Of a DNA stretch of 64,000 nucleotides, positions 2,548 through 12,083 are shown in pieces. The stretch is taken from NCBI RefSeq assembly GCF_022533585.1, contig NZ_CP092827.1, forward strand, positions 4,690,001 through 4,754,000, given 5' to 3'. The DNA is from Pseudomonas sp. LS.1a (lineage in GTDB: Bacteria; Pseudomonadota; Gammaproteobacteria; Pseudomonadales; Pseudomonadaceae). Made by a program: the position numbers and the translations under genes. Each line of letters begins with the position of its first letter. Position 1 is the stretch's first letter. Under the pieces are notes generated by a model. That model ran no database searches. It had not been told where the DNA came from and was given only the letters and a program-made list of their open reading frames with translations.

Positions 2548-3144
2548 ATGGCTTTTGAATTGCCGCCGCTGCCGTACGCCCACGATGCCCTGCAGCCGCA
2601 CATCTCCAAGGAAACCCTGGAGTATCACCACGACAAGCACCACAACACCTATGTCGTGAACCTGAACAACCTGGTCCCAGGCACCGAATTCGAAGGCAAG
2701 ACCCTGGAAGAGATCGTCAAGACCTCTTCGGGCGGCATCTTCAACAACGCCGCTCAAGTCTGGAACCACACCTTCTACTGGAACTGCCTGGCACCAAACG
2801 CCGGTGGCCAGCCGACCGGTGCCCTGGCTGACGCCATCAACGCCGCTTTCGGTTCCTTCGACAAGTTCAAGGAAGAGTTCACCAAGACCTCGGTTGGCAC
2901 CTTCGGTTCCGGCTGGGGCTGGCTGGTGAAGAAGGCTGACGGTTCCCTGGCCCTGGCCAGCACCATCGGCGCCGGCTGCCCGCTGACCAGCGGCGACACC
3001 CCGCTGCTGACCTGCGACGTCTGGGAACACGCCTACTACATCGACTACCGCAACCTGCGTCCCAAGTACGTCGAGGCATTCTGGAACCTGGTCAACTGGG
3101 CCTTCGTTGCCGAACAGTTCGAAGGCAAGACCTTCAAGGCCTGA
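2548..3144 (+). CDS. sodB: Iron superoxide dismutase SodB
   Basis: Cytoplasmic Fe-dependent superoxide dismutase converting superoxide to oxygen and peroxide, 198 residues. All four metal ligands of the Fe/Mn family are present: H27, H74, D157 and H161 (in [11 protein letters not shown]). The short N-terminus [15 protein letters not shown] and the [14 protein letters not shown] segment are typical of the Fe enzyme. The SD (AGGAG at 2538-2542) is well spaced before ATG. A strong terminator lies at 3193-3230. I recall sodB and bifA as direct neighbours in other pseudomonads; here five extra genes lie between them. Confidence 0.97.
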
Positions 3145-3166
3145 GTCATCCAGCCTTGAGACAGAA

Positions 3167-3185
3167 CCCCGGCGCCACGCCGGGG
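3167..3185 (+). terminator. GC hairpin after sodB
   Basis: CCCCGGCG-CCA-CGCCGGGG is a perfect 8-bp stem 22 bases past the sodB stop. It has no T-tract of its own and is followed at once by the stronger T-tailed hairpin at 3193-3230. Confidence 0.5.
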
Positions 3186-3192
3186 CTCTTCG

Positions 3193-3230
3193 AAAATCCG
3201 ATGCCAGTCCTCTGGTATCGGATTTTTTTT
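3193..3230 (+). terminator. sodB: Rho-independent terminator of sodB
   Basis: A 14-bp stem (3193-3206 with 3213-3226, one G-T pair, 6-base loop) runs into eight T residues at 3223-3230. The matching A-run on the left also lets it work for the convergent gene ending at 3263. Confidence 0.85.
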
Positions 3231-3262
3231 CGGGGCATGCGAGGGGCCAGAACGCCGTATTT

Positions 3263-4012
3263 TCAGGAAACGTACCGATCAAGCCAGCCAAGGCTATCTA
3301 CAGTGGCACCCGTAGGCCGATACTCACATCCAACCCACCCTGCATACCCGCGCTGCTCCAGCGCCGCCAGCAACCCTGCAACATCCATCTGCCCCGTCCC
3401 CGGCTGATGCCGCCCCGGGCAGTCGGCCACCTGCACATGCACTGTCCGCTCAAAGAACTGCGCCAGCACATCGGCAGCATTTCCGGTCAGCAACTGTGCA
3501 TGATAAAGATCAAGGATCAGCCCCATACCGGGATGCGCCTCCAGTACCCGCTGCGCCTTGCCGAAGTCGGACATGTAATACCCCGGCATTGCCTGCGTGC
3601 AGATCACCTCGATCAATGGCCGCAGCCCCTGGTCTTCAAAATACTTCACGGCATAGTCCAGGTTGCTCGCATACACCTTGTCGGCGCCATCCTCATGGGT
3701 TACCCCGGACATCAGGTGCACATCCGCACACGCCAGTGCGCGGGCATAGCTGACGGCCTGGCGTAACCCGTCACGGAACTCGGGCTCCTTGCCCGCCACC
3801 GCGGCAATACCCTTGGAAACGCCAGCCGGCGCAGCGAACTGGACCAATGGCAACCCATATTGCGCCAGTTGATCAGCCAACAAACTCGCATCGAATTCAT
3901 AGGGCGACGGGAATTCCACCGCACGAAATCCGGCGGCGGCAGCGGCTTCGATACGCTGCAGAAAAGGCAGTTCATTGAACTGGAAGCCGAGATGAGCATT
4001 GAATTTGAGCAT
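3263..4012 (-). CDS. hyi: Hydroxypyruvate isomerase-family sugar isomerase
   Basis: TIM-barrel xylose-isomerase-like protein, 249 residues, close to the ~258 of Hyi. It begins MLKFNAHLGFQFNELPFLQR and ends with the family's C-terminal block (PGTGQMDVAGLL, GWVGCEYRP). Metal-binding acidic and His residues are present, including IEVIC, ILDLYHAQ and VQVADCPGRHQPG. The family interconverts hydroxypyruvate and tartronate semialdehyde, or epimerises related 3-oxo sugar acids. An upstream in-frame start exists at 4438 but would overlap the divergent regulator and lacks family similarity. No glyoxylate carboligase gene is nearby, so the real substrate is open. Divergent from the GntR gene across 93 bp. 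Confidence 0.8.
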   Translation of the reverse strand: MLKFNAHLGFQFNELPFLQRIEAAAAAGFRAVEFPSPYEFDASLLADQLAQYGLPLVQFAAPAGVSKGIAAVAGKEPEFRDGLRQAVSYARALACADVHLMSGVTHEDGADKVYASNLDYAVKYFEDQGLRPLIEVICTQAMPGYYMSDFGKAQRVLEAHPGMGLILDLYHAQLLTGNAADVLAQFFERTVHVQVADCPGRHQPGTGQMDVAGLLAALEQRGYAGWVGCEYRPTGATVDSLGWLDRYVS

Positions 4013-4105
4013 GCGTATAGATCCATCCGTGTGTGGTATTTTCCTGCCCCCAGTCCGACCCGAATCTGCTGGATCGACTGAAGATAACCATTCGGAATAC
4101 AGCCT

Positions 4106-5008
4106 GTGATAAAGAAAGATCTCGCCCTGCAGCTGGCCCCTCGCGTCATCGAGATGATCCGCGCCCGGTCGATGAAGGCCGGCGAGCCATTGCGCGAGCA
4201 GACCTTCGCCCAAGCCTTCGATGTCTCCCGCTCCCCCATTCGCAGGGTATTTGCCCTGCTCGCCGAGTGGAACATCGCGGTGCAGGAGCCCAATCGCGGC
4301 TACTTTCTGAAACAGGACGCCGGGCAGATCCAGGAAACCACTGTACCGCCCACCTGCGACCCATTCGAAGACTTCTACCTGCGCGTGGTGGACGACATCC
4401 TCAGCGGGGAAGTCCCTGCCGAATTCTTTGAGGCCCAATTACTGCGACGCTACTCCGTGCCCCGCGGGCAACTGCTCAAGGTCCTCAACCGGCTGGCCAG
4501 CGAAGCCATGGTCGAGCGCAAGCCCGGGCAAGGCTGGAGCCTTAACGAATTCGTACACAACGCCCAGACCCACATCCAGAGCTACCGCTTCCGCATGGCC
4601 ATCGAGCCGGCCGCACTGCGCGAGCCAGGCTACAAGGTCAACCAGGCCGCATTTGCCAAAGCCCGGGAGCAACAGCAGGCCATGCTCGACGGCGAAATTC
4701 ACCAGCTGTCACGTGCCCAACTGTTCGAAATTGGCGCCCAGTTTCACGAAATGATCGTGCAGTGCTCGGGCAATCTCTTCTTCATAGATGCCATACGCCG
4801 GCAAAACCAGCTCAGACGCTTCATGAGCTACAAAGCCAACGTCGACCGCAGTCGCCTGATGACGCAATGCCTGGAGCACCTGCACCTGCTCGACTTGATC
4901 GAGTCCGGTCGGCGTGAAGAAGCCGCTCAGTTTCTCTGGAAACATCTGGACGAAGTCGGCCGGCTCAAGACCCGTCAGGATGCCTTGCTGGAAAGCCAGC
5001 AGGCGTAA
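4106..5008 (+). CDS. GntR/FCD regulator with two winged helices
   Basis: Regulator of 300 residues, longer than the ~230 of ordinary FadR-type proteins. One GntR winged helix spans about residues 7-70 (FAQAFDVSRSPIRRVFALLAE). A second GntR-like winged helix follows at about 88-147 (LLRRYSVPRGQLLKVLNRLA, then a KPGQGW wing). An FCD effector domain covers about 155-290, with FHEMIVQCSGNLFF around H214 and EHLHLLDLIESGRREEAAQFLWKHL-like ends. The start is GTG at 4106. It is divergent from the isomerase gene and upstream of the PQQ dehydrogenase, so it probably controls the islet in response to a carboxylic acid. Effector unknown. Confidence 0.82.
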   Translation: MIKKDLALQLAPRVIEMIRARSMKAGEPLREQTFAQAFDVSRSPIRRVFALLAEWNIAVQEPNRGYFLKQDAGQIQETTVPPTCDPFEDFYLRVVDDILSGEVPAEFFEAQLLRRYSVPRGQLLKVLNRLASEAMVERKPGQGWSLNEFVHNAQTHIQSYRFRMAIEPAALREPGYKVNQAAFAKAREQQQAMLDGEIHQLSRAQLFEIGAQFHEMIVQCSGNLFFIDAIRRQNQLRRFMSYKANVDRSRLMTQCLEHLHLLDLIESGRREEAAQFLWKHLDEVGRLKTRQDALLESQQA

Positions 5009-5220
5009 CCCCTTCCCCCGCCTACCTTTCATTACCCGCGCGTTCAGATCAGGGAAGGCAGCTTAGACATTGCCTTCTTTTCACGCAAGATACAAAACCG
5101 CCCTGAGATTCAGCGCCAGGAGTAAATTTCGCGCCACTTATTGTATTTCATTGCAAGAATAAGCAATTATGCGCGCCGCTCGGACGCACTGTGGCACCGA
5201 ATCACACAGGGATGATTGCA

Positions 5221-7677
5221 ATGAAACAAGGAACGTTGGCTAACGGGACGGGGGTCTCCAGCCTGCTGTTCGGGGTGTACACGATTCTGCTGGCCCTGCT
5301 TGGCCTGACGCTGGCCTGTCAGGGAAGCACGCTGGTCAGTGCCGGCGGCTCGCCTTACTACGCAATGATGGGTACCGCATTGCTGCTGTCAGCCGCACTC
5401 ATGGGCCTGAAGAAGTCGCTCGGCATCTATCTCTACGGTGCAGCATCCCTGGCCACCTACGGCTGGGCAATCTGGGAATCCGGCTACAACGGCTGGGCCT
5501 ATATCCCACGTCTGGCATGGCTGGTACTTCTCAGTGTGATCTTTCTGGCCTTCTGGCCTCTTGTCCGGCGCGACTTTGCCAAAGTCAACAAGGCACTGTA
5601 TTTCAGCATCATGGGGGGGCTGCCGCTGCTGATGGCGGCCACCATCCTGACACCGCTGTTCTTCCCCAACACCGTTCACCTGGCCGACTCGCCCGCTATC
5701 ACCGCGCATACACAGCAACCCTTCAGCCGCAGTACTGTGACCTCACCGGACGCCAATGTCGCCGCGTCCCACGACAAGACCAACTGGACCGCCTATGCCG
5801 GCTCCAACCTCGGCAACCACTATTCCGCTGCGGCGCAGATTACCCCAAGCAACGTTTCCGGCCTGGTCAAGGCCTGGGAGTATCATCATGGCGATGTGAA
5901 ACAGCCTGGCGAAAAAACCAAGTATCTGAACGAGGCCACGCCAATCAAGGTTGGCGACTCGCTGTATACCTGCACGCCCAAGCAAATCATCATTTCGTTG
6001 AACGCCACTACCGGCAAGGAGAACTGGCGCTACGACTCGAAAGTCGACCCGGACTATTTCGCCAACGGTGGTGCCTATTGCCGTGGTGTCTCGTACTACG
6101 AAGTACCCAATGCCAGTGGCCTGTGCGCCAAACGCATCATCTGGGGCACCAACGACATCCGCCTGGGTGCAGTTGATGCGCTCACCGGGCAGGCCTGCCC
6201 AGATTTCGGCACGGCAGGCTTTGCCGACCTCAAGGACGGCCTGGGCACGTTCCGCAAAGGCTCCACCGGCATCACTTCTGCACCATTGGTAATCCGCGGT
6301 GTGGTCATTACCGGTGGCCGGGTGCTTGACTCGGATGTGCGCCCGGCGCCGTCAGGTGTGGTTCGCGCCTACGACGCAGTCAGCGGCAAACAGAAGTGGG
6401 CCTGGGACCTCGGTCGCCCCGACAGCACTGCGCCTGCCGACGCCGATGAAACCTATACGCTCAGCACGCCCAACTCATGGGCGCCGATTTCCGCCGACGA
6501 CGAACTGGGGCTGGTCTACATCACCACCGGCAATGCTGCAGGCGACTTCTATGGCGGTACCCGTACCGAACAGGAAGACAAGTTCAGCTCTTCACTGGTG
6601 GCCCTGGATGCGCTCACCGGCAAGGTCAAATGGCATTTCCAGACCGTCCATCACGACCTCTGGGACTACGACCTGAGCCCACAACCGGCGCTGATCGATT
6701 TCCCCACGAGCAGCGGCCCACGCCCGGCAGTCATTCAAGCCACCAAATCAGGCCAGTTGTTCGTCCTCGACCGCGCCACCGGCGAACCGCTGGTCGATGT
6801 CGTGCAGGCTGCCGTCCCGCAAGGCACGGCCCCTGGGGACTACACCGCGGCCACGCAGCCGCTGTCACCGGGCATGCCGAGCACCATGGGCCGCCCATCG
6901 AAAACCCCGGAAGTGCTGAACGAAACCAATGCCTGGGGCCTGACGCCGTTCGATCAGTTGCAATGCCGCATCGAGTTTCGCCAGGCGCGTTACGAAGGGA
7001 TCTTTACGCCACCGGTGGTCGGCCAGCAAAGCCTGATCTTCCCCGGCCATCACGGCGGCCTGAACTGGGGCGGGGTGATGGTGGACCTGCAACGAGGCCT
7101 GCTGATCATCAACAACCAGCGGCTGCCGTACATGCAGGGGCTGGTTCCACGGGAGCAGCTCGATGCGATCAATGCCAAGTCGTTCCAGGAGTCGCCAGGC
7201 AATAACCAGGGGTTCCGCGTCCAGGCCGGTCTGCCGTTCGGGGCAATCAAGGACCCATGGATGTCAGCGCTGGAACAGCCGTGCATCGCACCACCCTGGG
7301 GGTTCATCTCCGCTATCGACCTGCGCACACGTGAAGTGCGCTGGAGCCGCCCGTTCGGCACCGGCTATGACAGTGGGCCCTTGGGCATCGCCTCGAAACT
7401 GCGCTTCGAAATCGGCACTCCGAGCGACGCCACTGGCGTGGCTACAGCAGGAGGCGTGACCTTCATTGGCGCTGCCATCGACCGTTTCATGCGCGCCTAC
7501 AACAGCGAAAGTGGTGAATTGCTGTGGGAGGAGCGCCTACCGGCCGGCAACCAGGCTTCGCCCCTGACCTACATGAGCGAAGGGCGGCAGTACGTTGTTG
7601 CCGTGGTCGGCGGGCATGACCGGATTCCGACCAAGCTGGGTGACAGCATCATTGCCTGGGCGCTGCCGGAGAAATAG
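5221..7677 (+). CDS. Membrane PQQ-dependent dehydrogenase (glucose/quinate/shikimate type)
   Basis: Inner-membrane quinoprotein of 818 residues passing electrons to ubiquinone. About five hydrophobic segments fill the first ~150 residues, then an eight-bladed PQQ propeller faces the periplasm. Family blocks are clear: ALDALTGKVKWHFQTVHHDL, WDYDLSPQPALIDFP, ATKSGQLFVLDRATGEP with the catalytic Lys (K509), and the tail LPAGNQASPLTYMSEGRQYV. GTG 5191 and ATG 5212 are alternative starts; 5221 is chosen for AGGGA at 5208-5212. The ending resembles quinate/shikimate enzymes more than glucose dehydrogenase, but substrate is inference. No PQQ synthesis genes are in the window. Confidence 0.88.
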   Translation: MKQGTLANGTGVSSLLFGVYTILLALLGLTLACQGSTLVSAGGSPYYAMMGTALLLSAALMGLKKSLGIYLYGAASLATYGWAIWESGYNGWAYIPRLAWLVLLSVIFLAFWPLVRRDFAKVNKALYFSIMGGLPLLMAATILTPLFFPNTVHLADSPAITAHTQQPFSRSTVTSPDANVAASHDKTNWTAYAGSNLGNHYSAAAQITPSNVSGLVKAWEYHHGDVKQPGEKTKYLNEATPIKVGDSLYTCTPKQIIISLNATTGKENWRYDSKVDPDYFANGGAYCRGVSYYEVPNASGLCAKRIIWGTNDIRLGAVDALTGQACPDFGTAGFADLKDGLGTFRKGSTGITSAPLVIRGVVITGGRVLDSDVRPAPSGVVRAYDAVSGKQKWAWDLGRPDSTAPADADETYTLSTPNSWAPISADDELGLVYITTGNAAGDFYGGTRTEQEDKFSSSLVALDALTGKVKWHFQTVHHDLWDYDLSPQPALIDFPTSSGPRPAVIQATKSGQLFVLDRATGEPLVDVVQAAVPQGTAPGDYTAATQPLSPGMPSTMGRPSKTPEVLNETNAWGLTPFDQLQCRIEFRQARYEGIFTPPVVGQQSLIFPGHHGGLNWGGVMVDLQRGLLIINNQRLPYMQGLVPREQLDAINAKSFQESPGNNQGFRVQAGLPFGAIKDPWMSALEQPCIAPPWGFISAIDLRTREVRWSRPFGTGYDSGPLGIASKLRFEIGTPSDATGVATAGGVTFIGAAIDRFMRAYNSESGELLWEERLPAGNQASPLTYMSEGRQYVVAVVGGHDRIPTKLGDSIIAWALPEK

Positions 7678-7867
7678 CGCGCCCGCTGCGTAAAGGCGCT
7701 GCTCGGCACTGAAAGCCAGGCGCTGACATACCCGCTATCAACCAATCATCGACAGCCGATGGCGCGCCGTGCGCCGTCGGGTGGCTGCGTGCGCGCCACA
7801 AACAGCAACGAGCAACTGCGGTACAGAAGTGCCCGCTTGAATTCATGTCAATCAGACAGGAGTGACA

Positions 7868-8611
7868 ATGTTTGAACTATCCGCTGGCCTATATGTTTTG
7901 GTGGGCGTCAGCTTTCTAACTTCTTTGATGACTGCCGCTATCGGCGTAGGCGGCGGGATTGGCCTATTGGCAGTCATGCCGCAGTTCCTGCCCATTTCTG
8001 CCGTTGTGCCGGTGCATGGCCTGATTCAGATGGTCAGCAACGGCAGCCGCTTCGCCTTCGATTACAAGCACGCAAAAATCGAGATTCTCCCGCGTTATGT
8101 CATCGGCTGCCTTTCAGGGGCAGCCATCGGTTACTTCTTCATTGGGCATTTCCCGGAAAAGTACCTGTCGTTGATTCTCGGCATCTTCATCCTGGCGATT
8201 ACCTGGACCAAGCTGGTCGCCTCGCTCGGCTTTGTCCTGAAAAACTTTGCCATCGTTGGCTTCCTGCAAACGTTTCTATCACTGTTCGTTGCCGTCACCG
8301 GGCTTATTTCCCAGCCGATCCTGATGAGGATGAACATCAACAAGGATCAGGTCATCGTCACCCACGCCATGCAGATGAGTGTATTGCACGGTCTGAAAGT
8401 AGCTGCCTTTGTCTTTGCCGGCTTTGCCTTCATGGACTATGCCCAGTTGATCATCATCATGATCACCGCCTCCACCGCCGGTTCCTACCTGGGCGGCTTT
8501 CTTCGAAATCGAATATCGCAACGTGTTGGCGCCATCCTGCTTAAAGCCGGGGTGACGTTCTTCGGTTTGAAAATGATTGTGGACCATTTTATTCAAAACG
8601 TCTGAGCTTCA
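7868..8611 (+). CDS. TauE/SafE-family membrane permease
   Basis: Inner-membrane anion permease of about 245 residues with seven to eight hydrophobic segments; the reading frame stops at 8605 (TGA), the remaining bases being the spacer to the next gene. The glycine-rich TAAIGVGGGIGLLAVMP motif in the first helices and TASTAGSYLGGFLRNRIS near the end are family hallmarks. Members export or import sulfonates, sulfite or organic acids. The start is ATG 7868, because the AGGAG at 7858-7862 overlaps a possible GTG at 7862. It forms an operon with the dioxygenase starting at 8635. Its neighbours suggest it moves the dioxygenase substrate or product; which is not known. Confidence 0.82.
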
Positions 8612-8634
8612 TCCATTCAAACAAGGAGTTTGAA

Positions 8635-9603
8635 ATGATCGCGCGTAAAAAGTTTGATTCCAAGGACACCCAGGGGATCTCGACTTTTCTTCATGAACAT
8701 GGATATTGTGTAATCAACCCCGAGGACGATTCGCTCGAGGCCTTTCGCGCGGTGGCAGGCCGGTTCGGCCTGATCCAGTTCCATACCAAATCCGACAAGA
8801 CTGGCGTGGTCGGCGGCGGCGATCCGATCAACAAGGACTGGCAAGCGTTCAGGGACGACTACCACGGCGAACTGTCGAGCGACTTCTATCCCCATACGGA
8901 TGGCTCGTTCCTCAATGGCATGGCGTATATCGATGGGGTTGCCAGGAAGATTACCCCGCCCAAATACGTCATTCTGCAGTGCGTTTCCAAACCGCAGTTT
9001 GGCGGTGATAACTTCCTGGTGGATGGGCAACGCATTTATAATGACCTGCTGGTGAATCATCCCGACATCCTGAAGATCCTGATGACCAGTGGCAGTGTCA
9101 CGTACTGCCGTGATGACCTTCTGTCGATCGATTGTTCTGTCTTCGAAAAGGTCAACGAGAACAAACTGCGTATTCGCTACCGCTATGACAGCACTGCGTT
9201 CAGTCCGGAATGGGCCAGTTCCGCCTTCCAATATATCCAGGATAAATATTCAACCAACCCGGACTACATCACCAACATTAGCCTGGAACCCGGCGAAATC
9301 CTGGTCATGGACAACTTGCGAGTATTGCATGCACGCCACCAGTTCACTGACGGCAACATGAAAAGAAAAGTCCGTCGGCTGTGGATTGCCGATGACACCA
9401 GCATGGTATTCAAGAATATTCTCAACCAGTCGCCGGTGCGCAGGGCCATGTTGCCGTTCCAGAAATACAATATTGCCGCCGCCGAGAACGCGCCTGCCTT
9501 CATCGATTACAGTTGCGGGATTCGGTTTCAGTCGGACATGTTCCTGACCCCGCCCTGTGCCGAACTTGAACAATGGCCGGCCAGCAGTGCCAATCGCCAA
9601 TAA
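8635..9603 (+). CDS. TauD/TfdA-family 2-oxoglutarate/Fe(II) dioxygenase
   Basis: Non-haem iron oxygenase, 322 residues. The facial triad is readable: H87-x-D89 in FYPHTDGSF and distal H232 in DNLRVLHARHQF, with the 2-oxoglutarate-binding arginine probably at 247/248 (KVRRLW). The MDNLRVLHAR block is closer to gamma-butyrobetaine/trimethyllysine hydroxylase-like members than to taurine dioxygenase. A strong AAGGAG at 8623-8628 precedes the ATG. It is 29 bp downstream of the TauE gene and so co-transcribed. Codon use is visibly richer in AAT, ATT and AAA than in flanking core genes, which fits acquisition. Substrate unknown. Confidence 0.85.
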   Translation: MIARKKFDSKDTQGISTFLHEHGYCVINPEDDSLEAFRAVAGRFGLIQFHTKSDKTGVVGGGDPINKDWQAFRDDYHGELSSDFYPHTDGSFLNGMAYIDGVARKITPPKYVILQCVSKPQFGGDNFLVDGQRIYNDLLVNHPDILKILMTSGSVTYCRDDLLSIDCSVFEKVNENKLRIRYRYDSTAFSPEWASSAFQYIQDKYSTNPDYITNISLEPGEILVMDNLRVLHARHQFTDGNMKRKVRRLWIADDTSMVFKNILNQSPVRRAMLPFQKYNIAAAENAPAFIDYSCGIRFQSDMFLTPPCAELEQWPASSANRQ

Positions 9604-9733
9604 CCCTTTCCCCGCACTACTGTAACTGCCCGATAACGCGTGCCTTCACAGTGCCTGCCTGATGGCGGATGCTGTGCTCGTCTGCATGCGTACACAGGTG
9701 GTTGCCTTTCATCGCAGGGATCCGTCCGCTTCT

Positions 9734-9829
9734 CCAGCGGCGAGCAAATCCCGGTCCGCTCCCACAGGCTTTACACTGTTCGAAGAATGTGCAATGCCTG
9801 TGGGGGCGGGCTTGCCCGCGAAGTGGCCT
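9734..9829. repeat. Degenerate REP pair upstream of bifA
   Basis: A 'CCGCTCCCACAGG' half at about 9751-9768 faces a 'CCTGTGGGGGCGGGCTTGCCCGCGAA' half at 9798-9822. The left arm is decayed. This is the main content of the 425-bp gap 9604-10028, with the inverted repeat at 9944-9978; no gene is seen in the rest. Confidence 0.7.
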
Positions 9830-9943
9830 GCACAGTTTTCACCTGCGCCCCACCCGCAAAATGCTTGCTCAACCCGCATACCACGCTAACATCAAACCTC
9901 TGGAAGATTGATACAGCGCATTCAAGTTGCGGGGTCAGGCAAC

Positions 9944-9978
9944 CGATACACTACTAATGGTCGGCCGATAGTGTATCG
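9944..9978. promoter_or_regulatory. 10-bp inverted repeat in the bifA upstream region
   Basis: CGATACACTA (9944-9953) and TAGTGTATCG (9969-9978) are perfect 10-bp arms separated by 15 bases, 50 bp ahead of the bifA start. The spacing suits a dimeric regulator's operator. No T-tract, so not a terminator. Function is inference. Confidence 0.5.
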
Positions 9979-10028
9979 TCATCGTTGATGGCAAAATGAT
10001 GCCATGCGTATGGATTAAGGAAACCCCA

Positions 10029-12083
10029 TTGAAGCTGGAATTGCGGAACAGCTTGTCGGTCAAGTTGCTCAGGGTCGTGCTGCTGTCGGCGCTGGCGGTC
10101 GGTGTCGTGCTCAGCTGTGCGCAAATCGTCTACGACACCTACAAGACCCGCCAGGCCGTGAACAACGATGCCCAGCGCATCCTCGACATGTTCCGCGACC
10201 CCTCGACCCAGGCGGTATATAGCCTGGACCGCGAAATGGGCATGCAGGTGATGGAAGGCCTGTTCCAGGACGAATCGGTACGCATGGCGTCCATCGGCCA
10301 TCCCAACGAAACCATGCTGGCAGAAAAGTCCCGCCCGCTGCAGGACACGCCCATGCGCTGGCTGACCGACCTTATCCTCGGCCAGGAACGTACCTACACC
10401 ACGCAACTGGTCGGCCGCGGCCCCTACAGCGAATACTATGGCGACCTGAGCATCACCCTCGACACCTCGTCCTACGGCGAAGACTTTCTGATCAACGCCG
10501 TGATCATCTTCATTTCCGGTGTGCTGCGGGCCCTGGCCATGGGCCTGGTGCTGTACCTGGTCTACCACTGGCTACTGACCAAACCGCTGTCGAAGATCAT
10601 CGAGCACCTTACCCAGATCAACCCCGACCGCCCCAGCCAGCACCAACTGCCGCTGCTAAAGGGCCACGAGAAGAACGAACTGGGCTTGTGGGTAAACACC
10701 GCCAACCAGTTGCTGGCCTCGATCGAGCGCAATACCCACCTGCGCCATGAAGCGGAAAACAGCCTGCAACGCATGGCGCAGTACGACTTCCTCACAGGCC
10801 TGCCCAACCGCCAGCAGTTGCAGCAGCAACTGGACAAGATCCTCGTCGACGGCGGCCGCCTGCAACACCGTGTGGCGGTGCTATGCGTAGGCCTGGACGA
10901 CTTCAAGGGCATCAACGAGCAGTTCAGCTACCAGGTCGGCGACCAGCTGCTGCTGGCCTTGGCCGACCGCCTGCGCGCCCACAGCGGCCGCCTGGGCGCC
11001 CTGGCACGGTTGGGCGGTGACCAGTTCGCCCTGGTACAGGCCAATATCGAGCAGCCCTACGAGGCGGCCGAGCTGGCACAGAGTATCCTCGACGACCTGG
11101 AAGTGCCGTTCGACCTCGACCACCACCAGCAGATCCGCCTACGCGCCACCATCGGCATCACCCTGTTCCCGGAAGACGGCGACAGCACCGAGAAGCTGCT
11201 GCAGAAAGCCGAACAGACCATGACCCTGGCCAAGGCCCGTTCGCGCAACCGCTACCAGTTCTACATCGCCAGCGTCGACAGCGAGATGCGCCGCCGTCGC
11301 GAGCTGGAAAAGGACCTGCGCGAAGCCCAGGCGCGCAACCAGCTGTACCTGGTGTACCAACCACAGATCAGCTACCGCGACCACAGCGTGGTTGGTGTCG
11401 AGGCACTGCTGCGCTGGCAGCACCCGGAGCTGGGCATGGTGCCGCCAGATCAGTTCATCCCCCTCGCCGAACAGAACGGCAGCATCATCAGCATCGGCGA
11501 GTGGGTGCTCGACCAGGCCTGCCGGCAGCTGCGCGAATGGCACGACATGGGCTTCAGCGACCTGCGCATGGCGGTCAATCTGTCCACCGTACAGCTGCAC
11601 CACAACGAACTGCCGCGGGTGGTCAACAACCTGCTGCAGGCCTACCGCCTGCCGCCACGCAGCCTGGAGCTGGAAGTCACCGAGACCGGCCTGATGGAAG
11701 ACATCAGCACCGCCGCCCAGCACCTGCTGAGCCTGCGCCGCTCCGGAGCACTGATTGCCATCGACGACTTCGGCACCGGCTACTCGTCGCTCAGCTACCT
11801 GAAATCGCTGCCGCTGGACAAGATCAAGATCGACAAGAGCTTCGTCCAGGACCTGCTGGACGACGATGATGACGCCACCATCGTTCGCGCCATCATCCAG
11901 CTGGGCAAGAGCCTGGGGATGCAGGTGATCGCTGAAGGCGTGGAAACCGCCGAACAGGAAACCTACATCGTCGCCCAGGGCTGCCACGAAGGCCAGGGCT
12001 ACCACTACAGCAAGCCGCTGTCGGCCCGTGAGCTGACCAACTTCCTCAAGCAGGCGCAGCGCAACCAGGTTTCGATGTTCTGA
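10029..12083 (+). CDS. bifA: BifA: c-di-GMP phosphodiesterase (degenerate GGDEF plus EAL)
   Basis: Inner-membrane GGDEF-EAL protein of 684 residues that hydrolyses cyclic di-GMP and thereby promotes motility and biofilm dispersal. N-terminal helix at about 10-32, periplasmic loop, second helix at about 155-178, HAMP-like linker, then GGDEF. The cyclase signature is degenerate (G329-G330-D331-Q332-F333, GGDQF), as known for BifA. The EAL domain has E458-A459-L460 and a DDFGTGYSSLSYL loop. The start TTG 10029 is preferred (AAGGAA at 10017-10022) because the protein then begins LKLELRNSLSVKLL as in BifA; ATG 9996 is an alternative. In other pseudomonads it sits next to sodB. Confidence 0.92.
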   Translation: MKLELRNSLSVKLLRVVLLSALAVGVVLSCAQIVYDTYKTRQAVNNDAQRILDMFRDPSTQAVYSLDREMGMQVMEGLFQDESVRMASIGHPNETMLAEKSRPLQDTPMRWLTDLILGQERTYTTQLVGRGPYSEYYGDLSITLDTSSYGEDFLINAVIIFISGVLRALAMGLVLYLVYHWLLTKPLSKIIEHLTQINPDRPSQHQLPLLKGHEKNELGLWVNTANQLLASIERNTHLRHEAENSLQRMAQYDFLTGLPNRQQLQQQLDKILVDGGRLQHRVAVLCVGLDDFKGINEQFSYQVGDQLLLALADRLRAHSGRLGALARLGGDQFALVQANIEQPYEAAELAQSILDDLEVPFDLDHHQQIRLRATIGITLFPEDGDSTEKLLQKAEQTMTLAKARSRNRYQFYIASVDSEMRRRRELEKDLREAQARNQLYLVYQPQISYRDHSVVGVEALLRWQHPELGMVPPDQFIPLAEQNGSIISIGEWVLDQACRQLREWHDMGFSDLRMAVNLSTVQLHHNELPRVVNNLLQAYRLPPRSLELEVTETGLMEDISTAAQHLLSLRRSGALIAIDDFGTGYSSLSYLKSLPLDKIKIDKSFVQDLLDDDDDATIVRAIIQLGKSLGMQVIAEGVETAEQETYIVAQGCHEGQGYHYSKPLSARELTNFLKQAQRNQVSMF

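Follow-up and report, generated by a model that had tools for sequence, protein, structure and literature searches.

A five-gene islet between sodB and bifA of Pseudomonas sp. LS.1a, a candidate accessory metabolic cassette

The five genes and their insertion site

We analysed a 64,000-nucleotide stretch of Pseudomonas sp. LS.1a DNA (contig NZ_CP092827.1; the whole stretch is referred to as the window, and coordinates are counted from its first letter), in which five genes lie between sodB (2548–3144) and bifA (9996–12083). The first, hyi (3263–4012, minus strand), encodes a 249-residue xylose-isomerase-like TIM-barrel protein resembling hydroxypyruvate and 2-oxo-tetronate isomerases (PF01261). 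Divergent from it, gntR (4106–5008, plus strand) encodes a GntR/FCD-family regulator that matches PF00392 (in two stretches) and PF07729 over cut-off. Three genes follow on the plus strand: pqqDH (5191–7677), encoding a membrane-bound pyrroloquinoline quinone (PQQ)-dependent dehydrogenase (TIGR03074); tauE (7862–8605), encoding a TauE/SafE-family membrane permease (PF01925); and tauD (8635–9603), encoding a TauD/TfdA-type Fe(II)/2-oxoglutarate oxygenase (PF02668) whose subfamily is rare. An original prediction, made by a model from the sequence alone, had named these same five genes, and all are present at these positions with their families over the model cut-offs.

That prediction also held that sodB and bifA are direct neighbours in other pseudomonads, which genome comparison largely bears out. 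A search of 149 Pseudomonas genomes gave sodB in every one (E ≤ 1e-85) and bifA in 148 (E ≤ 1e-240), with both on one contig in 141; this number omits seven genomes with the two genes on different contigs and one without a bifA match. The gap between them is shorter than 600 bp in 115 of the 141, 600–3,000 bp in 23, 6.9 kb in two and 115 kb in one. The two 6.9-kb gaps belong to the window genome and G057, in agreement with the expectation of an accessory islet that is not constant in relatives. At the left junction (3145–3262), similarity to all four empty sites compared, from genomes with a short sodB–bifA gap (G072, G081, G077 and G134), stops at 3184. At the right junction (9604–9995), which contains an element that we take to be repetitive extragenic palindromic (REP)-like, similarity to the same four sites resumes between 9790 and 9864. 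These boundaries indicate that the five-gene stretch is an insertion between sodB and bifA. No exact direct repeat of at least 8 bp was found between 3145–3262 and 9604–9995, and none of the five genes is recombinase-like. In 13 other genomes (G046, G135, G100, G053, G018, G049, G038, G005, G027, G008, G078, G118 and G063), 1.4–2.5 kb separates sodB from bifA, so the interval may take other small insertions.

Three genes of the islet also differ from its flanks in base composition. The GC content at third codon positions (GC3) is 0.677 for tauE and 0.684 for tauD, the two lowest values of the 47 genes called in the window, and that of hyi, which is outside those 47, is lower still at 0.668; sodB and bifA have values of 0.834 and 0.865. 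The predicted richness of tauD in A/T-ending codons relative to its flanks is thus present, and it applies equally to tauE and hyi. In the three copies of the islet that were measured, tauE and tauD have the lowest overall GC content of the five genes (52–53% in the window, 46–47% in L018 and 48–50% in L021).

Complete and partial copies in Pseudomonas

The presence and absence of the islet genes were scored by tblastn, because a simple gene caller missed hyi and many other genes. With a threshold of E ≤ 1e-20, tauD was found in nine of 398 Pseudomonas genomes, and in all nine it is adjoined by gntR, hyi, pqqDH and tauE; the five genes therefore co-occur beyond this locus and at several sites, which goes against the refuting condition, set with the original prediction, that they never occur together elsewhere. 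All nine complete copies are free of stops and frame breaks in the five genes. Of 169 genomes, four have a tauE homologue of at least 87% identity, and a pqqDH homologue at this level is found in the same four. Compared between the five genes, the matrices of pairwise identity show correlations of 0.92–0.99 (36 non-independent pairs from nine loci), a result that fits joint inheritance, although descent with the host clades predicts the same. Protein identity reaches 99–100% among the window genome, G057 and G368.

Judged by common flanking genes, whose types were named by resemblance, the complete copies occupy at least four chromosomal neighbourhoods. The sodB–bifA site is used in G000, G057 and G368. 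A sugar ATP-binding cassette (ABC)-transporter operon flanks the copies in G231 and G396, and G036 has one flanking gene in common with these. The copy in G178 lies by a short-chain dehydrogenase gene, in the same surroundings as the partial copies in G233 and G237, and the fourth neighbourhood is common to G099 and G238. In four of the nine copies (G231, G396, G036 and G178), a gene for an Asp/Glu-racemase-like protein, which in the L018 copy matches PF01177, lies between hyi and gntR. From these sequence comparisons, the five genes very probably constitute a co-inherited mobile unit.

A GntR of at least 82% identity was found in 13 of the 398 genomes, nine with complete cassettes and four with partial ones. 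In G103, which carries its copy at the sodB–bifA site, a deletion extends from inside pqqDH (about window position 5796) to just before bifA (about 9817). G103 and G233 retain a pqqDH remnant beside gntR–hyi, and in G237 and G304 gntR–hyi has no adjoining pqqDH, tauE or tauD. A genome-wide search found no tauD elsewhere in any of these four genomes. Conversely, tauD was found without gntR–hyi in none of its nine genomes, and tauE without gntR–hyi in none of the 169. This asymmetry suggests that tauE and tauD depend on the regulator–isomerase core and not vice versa. The corresponding case for pqqDH is weaker, because relatives at 44–61% identity exist, and the two with surroundings that were inspected, in G051 and on a Rhizobium plasmid, are not accompanied by hyi, tauE or tauD.

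Two further observations concern these remnants. At two different sites, pqqDH is reduced to its N-terminal membrane part (L054 10100–10603 and L055 8214–8828), with the matches stopping at residues 201 and 198; this could be coincidence or a retained membrane fragment. The hyi gene of G145 (L090 432–1181, plus strand) is 86% identical to that of the window, whereas the sodB genes of the two genomes are 98% identical.

Relatives of the encoded proteins

Hyi scores 127 bits against PF01261 (cut-off 31). Its best NCBIfam score is to the 2-oxo-tetronate isomerase model, OtnI, yet it falls below the cut-off of that model (NF043033, 240.3 bits versus 325) and below that for hydroxypyruvate isomerase (TIGR03234, 228.8 bits versus 353). 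The host genome has a gcl–hyi–glxR–ttuD–pyk-type operon, named by resemblance except for its Hyi, which was assigned by profile (TIGR03234, 407 bits versus 353). The islet Hyi is 39% identical to this paralogue, and both proteins have the same E, D, Q and E residues, presumably metal ligands, in what are likely to be the metal-site motifs. At this identity, a role for the islet Hyi as the isomerase of the glyoxylate carboligase operon was rejected. The operon resembles the islet in having a Hyi-type isomerase, but one that exceeds the curated cut-off that the islet Hyi misses, and the islet lacks a carboligase and a reductase. The operon could nevertheless serve as a sink for a tartronate-semialdehyde-type product.

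The relatives of GntR point to another context. At 63–69% identity, GntR is found in 11 more genomes, where it is accompanied by a racemase-like gene in ten of the 11 loci, a Hyi of 49–53% identity in seven, a CitMHS-type transporter in at least ten and an isocitrate/isopropylmalate-type dehydrogenase in at least nine. The last two counts are lower bounds, from clusters of called genes named through the profile matches of L071. In the stretches fetched around these 11 genes, pqqDH, tauE and tauD were found in none. OtnI, OtnK and OtnC constitute a four-carbon acid-sugar route. L071, the single locus tested by profile, has OtnK (616 bits versus 350), OtnC (278 versus 250) and CitMHS (548 versus 260) over cut-off. 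PMC12540250 and PMC10580937 are papers on this subject. The islet isomerase belongs to the same superfamily as OtnI; unlike the OtnI–OtnK–OtnC route, the cassette contains no kinase, decarboxylase or isocitrate-type dehydrogenase, and has the PQQ enzyme, TauE and TauD instead. In addition, no match to the OtnK family (PF07005) was found in the host genome, using a search whose control was positive in three of 14 genomes.

More distant GntR relatives lie in comparable surroundings. On a Paraburkholderia plasmid, one is near a racemase-family gene, an isocitrate/isopropylmalate-type dehydrogenase gene and an annotated otnK. Another, on a Cupriavidus plasmid, has genes of the first two of these kinds nearby. 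A third, on an Agrobacterium plasmid, adjoins tripartite tricarboxylate transporter genes and acnA. From these gene neighbourhoods we infer that a four-carbon acid-sugar regulon was the source of a borrowed core, which consists of GntR and Hyi and, in some copies, also of the racemase-like enzyme. As to the further contents of these clusters, the genes for GntR, the isocitrate-type dehydrogenase, OtnK, OtnC, a short-chain dehydrogenase/reductase (SDR), the racemase-like protein and CitMHS span L071 6739–13521 and recur in L062–L070 and L072 (profiles in L071), with an RraA-like gene in L062. The Paraburkholderia relative is also near pyk and a gene for an NADP (nicotinamide adenine dinucleotide phosphate)-dependent glyceraldehyde-3-phosphate dehydrogenase, and the Cupriavidus relative is near these two as well as ppc, eno, tpiA and gpmA.

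The pqqDH product meets TIGR03074, the model for membrane PQQ dehydrogenases of glucose, quinate and shikimate (924.7 bits versus 832.65), and is 41% and 38% identical to the two other membrane PQQ dehydrogenases of the host genome, which also encodes PqqE. In its TIGR03074 membership it is like the Gcd/QuiA enzymes with their OprB-type porin, names that the two host paralogues were given by resemblance; unlike these, it stands at only 38–41% identity to both host copies, and no porin is encoded among the five genes. Quinate or shikimate oxidation was considered and rejected, given that the protein is about equally far from both host enzymes, that the islet has no 3-dehydroshikimate dehydratase and that the QuiC profile scores 20.8 bits on Hyi against a cut-off of 1,200. 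The nearest relatives outside Pseudomonas with a named organism are from Pigmentiphaga (69%) and a Rhizobium plasmid (61–62%), and other matches stand at 71–82%. On the Rhizobium plasmid (L088 10950–16197), a GntR/FCD gene, the 61% pqqDH relative and an amidohydrolase-family gene lie in a row. The GntR/FCD gene, annotated as hypothetical and 34% identical to the window GntR, directly precedes the pqqDH relative, a pairing that favours a regulatory link between GntR and pqqDH. This locus also offers a simpler setting in which the substrate of pqqDH might be found.

TauE meets PF01925 (53.4 bits versus 32.6) and has no match at E ≤ 1 among sequences of solved structures. TauD meets PF02668 (81.4 bits versus 27). 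In an alignment of the window TauD with 29 of 35 homologues (omitting P0001, which is near identical to it, and P0017, P0020, P0023, P0025 and P0034), H87, D89, H232 and R244 are invariant in 30 of 30 sequences, forming an HxD...H...R pattern that we take to be the Fe site. R248 is likewise invariant, at the spacing of the sulfonate-binding Arg of the canonical TauD. The predicted structure has a predicted local distance difference test (pLDDT) score below 50 at residues 62–88, which include H87, and we therefore claim no active-site geometry.

The subfamily is sparsely represented. The 35 homologues were those at E ≤ 0.001 among 5.8 billion clustered proteins, in a search that reaches only relatives with short exact words in common. 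Nine TauD relatives stand at 37–43% identity. A scan of genome contigs gave three loci, all in Pseudomonas; a phylum-wide profile search gave one of 398 genomes, the window's own; and a plasmid search gave two records at 28–30% identity, of which the Nostoc homologue (28%) adjoins a P450 gene and a large SDR-annotated gene. The structural relatives that match TauD best have betaine-type substrates, and its relatives in the Protein Data Bank include antibiotic and natural-product enzymes such as carbapenem and clavaminate synthases. TauD falls far below the cut-offs for γ-butyrobetaine dioxygenase (46.7 bits versus 414.75) and TmpA (46.2 bits versus 400). It differs from TmpA and γ-butyrobetaine hydroxylase in being only about 20% identical to them and in length, since these are at least 60 residues longer and the match begins at their residue 115–119. 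No taurine dioxygenase model was among its five NCBIfam matches at E ≤ 0.001.

A possible route and its alternatives

The best overall explanation of these data is a co-inherited accessory metabolic cassette, in which an oxidative front end has been placed on an acid-sugar regulator and isomerase; we hold it tentatively, at somewhat below even chances. Its component statement, that the oxidative genes are an addition to an acid-sugar core, is evenly balanced. A catabolic direction with the steps in the order given here is more doubtful. In this scheme, the dehydrogenase, supplied with PQQ from the cell's own synthesis, would oxidize an alcohol, aldose or cyclitol to an acid in the periplasm and pass the electrons to quinone. 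The organic anion would cross the inner membrane through TauE, and TauD would hydroxylate or oxidatively cleave it in the cytoplasm. Hyi would then isomerize the resulting 2-keto-3-hydroxy acid, the product of which would most likely enter the GlxR–TtuD–Pyk-type route of the host, because OtnK is missing from the genome. GntR would sense an acid intermediate. The unit, its sites and its partial copies are seen directly in the sequence comparisons, and we infer the order of the reactions, the direction of transport, the substrate and the regulation.

The genes might specify an undescribed route: one carbon compound would be acted on by both a membrane PQQ dehydrogenase and the rare-subfamily oxygenase, with TauE as the link between them, and these enzymes would have replaced the transporter, dehydrogenase and kinase–decarboxylase of an ancestral acid-sugar cluster while GntR and the isomerase were kept. 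We consider this full version somewhat unlikely. What is new is how the genes are combined, together with the rare subfamily of the oxygenase; the superfamilies of all the parts are known. A literature search found no description of the five-gene set in titles and the beginnings of abstracts, which is no proof of its absence from print. If the front-end reading is right, the islet would represent a bacterial catabolic regulon rebuilt with an oxidative module in place of its original front end, and would provide a small, testable gene set for finding the substrate of the oxygenase subfamily. The original prediction had gone further and proposed a complete small pathway. Its inserted, co-occurring accessory islet stands; the completeness is not supported, given the scores of Hyi below both isomerase cut-offs, the lack of a match to a tetronate-route kinase in the genome and the four genomes that keep gntR–hyi without the oxidative genes beside it.

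Several observations weigh against the cassette as a single acid-sugar pathway. The racemase-like gene is absent from the window copy and from those in G057, G368, G099 and G238. In G145, an intact 249-residue hyi stands alone between sodB and bifA, so Hyi may do work that has nothing to do with the oxidative genes. At the Rhizobium locus, hyi, tauE and tauD were not found at E ≤ 1e-5, which implies that a related pqqDH can work without them. Within the set of 169, pqqDH relatives at 55% (G051) and 44% (G086) occur in genomes outside the GntR matches, and no cassette gene lies within 19 kb of that in G051. The gap between pqqDH and tauE, 184 bp in the window, can reach about 615 bp elsewhere among the copies; this gap and the lower GC content in three copies suggest that tauE–tauD could be a separately regulated unit. 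Finally, export is the main activity known for proteins of the TauE family, in which case the transport step would be reversed.

One alternative is that the islet consists of unrelated linked modules: GntR–Hyi in its old acid-sugar role, pqqDH serving a separate purpose under GntR control, and tauE–tauD acting independently, for example by oxygenating a sulfonated, betaine-like or other anion with export of sulfite or the product. The low GC content of tauE and tauD in the window, L018 and L021, the separate gap before tauE and the Rhizobium pairing of GntR with pqqDH alone are in line with such an arrangement, as are the betaine-type substrates of the best structural relatives of TauD and its invariant R248 at the sulfonate-binding spacing. 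We regard it as unlikely, however: nine of nine tauD genomes carry all five genes across at least four neighbourhoods, and the matching presence of tauE and close pqqDH homologues among the 169 genomes would be unexpected of unrelated neighbours. A biosynthetic or secretion cassette, in which periplasmic and cytoplasmic oxidations yield a small product exported by TauE, would draw on the carbapenem and clavaminate synthases among the relatives of TauD, on anion export, which we take to be the activity of the TauE family, and on the P450 and SDR-annotated neighbours of the Nostoc homologue. But the five genes include no synthetase, ligase or tailoring gene, and the relatives of the regulator and isomerase sit in acid-sugar-type clusters, making this quite improbable. 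Decay is suggested by the partial copies at the same site (the G103 deletion and the lone hyi of G145) and elsewhere (G233, G237 and G304). That the islet is a relic with no current function in the host strain is nonetheless very improbable in view of the intact reading frames in all nine complete copies, the invariant presumed Fe-site residues and the 99–100% protein identity among the window genome, G057 and G368.

For the cassette as a co-inherited metabolic unit, control by the single GntR is plausible, and tauE–tauD, 184 bp behind pqqDH, may have a promoter of its own. The divergent hyi–gntR promoter region (4013–4105) contains TGGTATTTTCC, a candidate operator or -10 region present in 13 of 13 loci read, and the gntR–pqqDH intergenic region (5009–5190, plus strand; 182 bp) contains TTGTATTTC, present in all 11 loci that retain the region. 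A KGTATTT-type element is common to both regions in the 11 loci retaining both; it was chosen by eye post hoc, is not used as evidence and may be an operator or a -10 region. The true start of pqqDH may be an in-frame ATG inside the open reading frame, and the likelier start of tauE is the ATG at 7868, downstream of AGGAG. The tauE and tauD genes are separated by 29 bp, and the ATG of tauD is preceded by AAGGAG at 6 bp.

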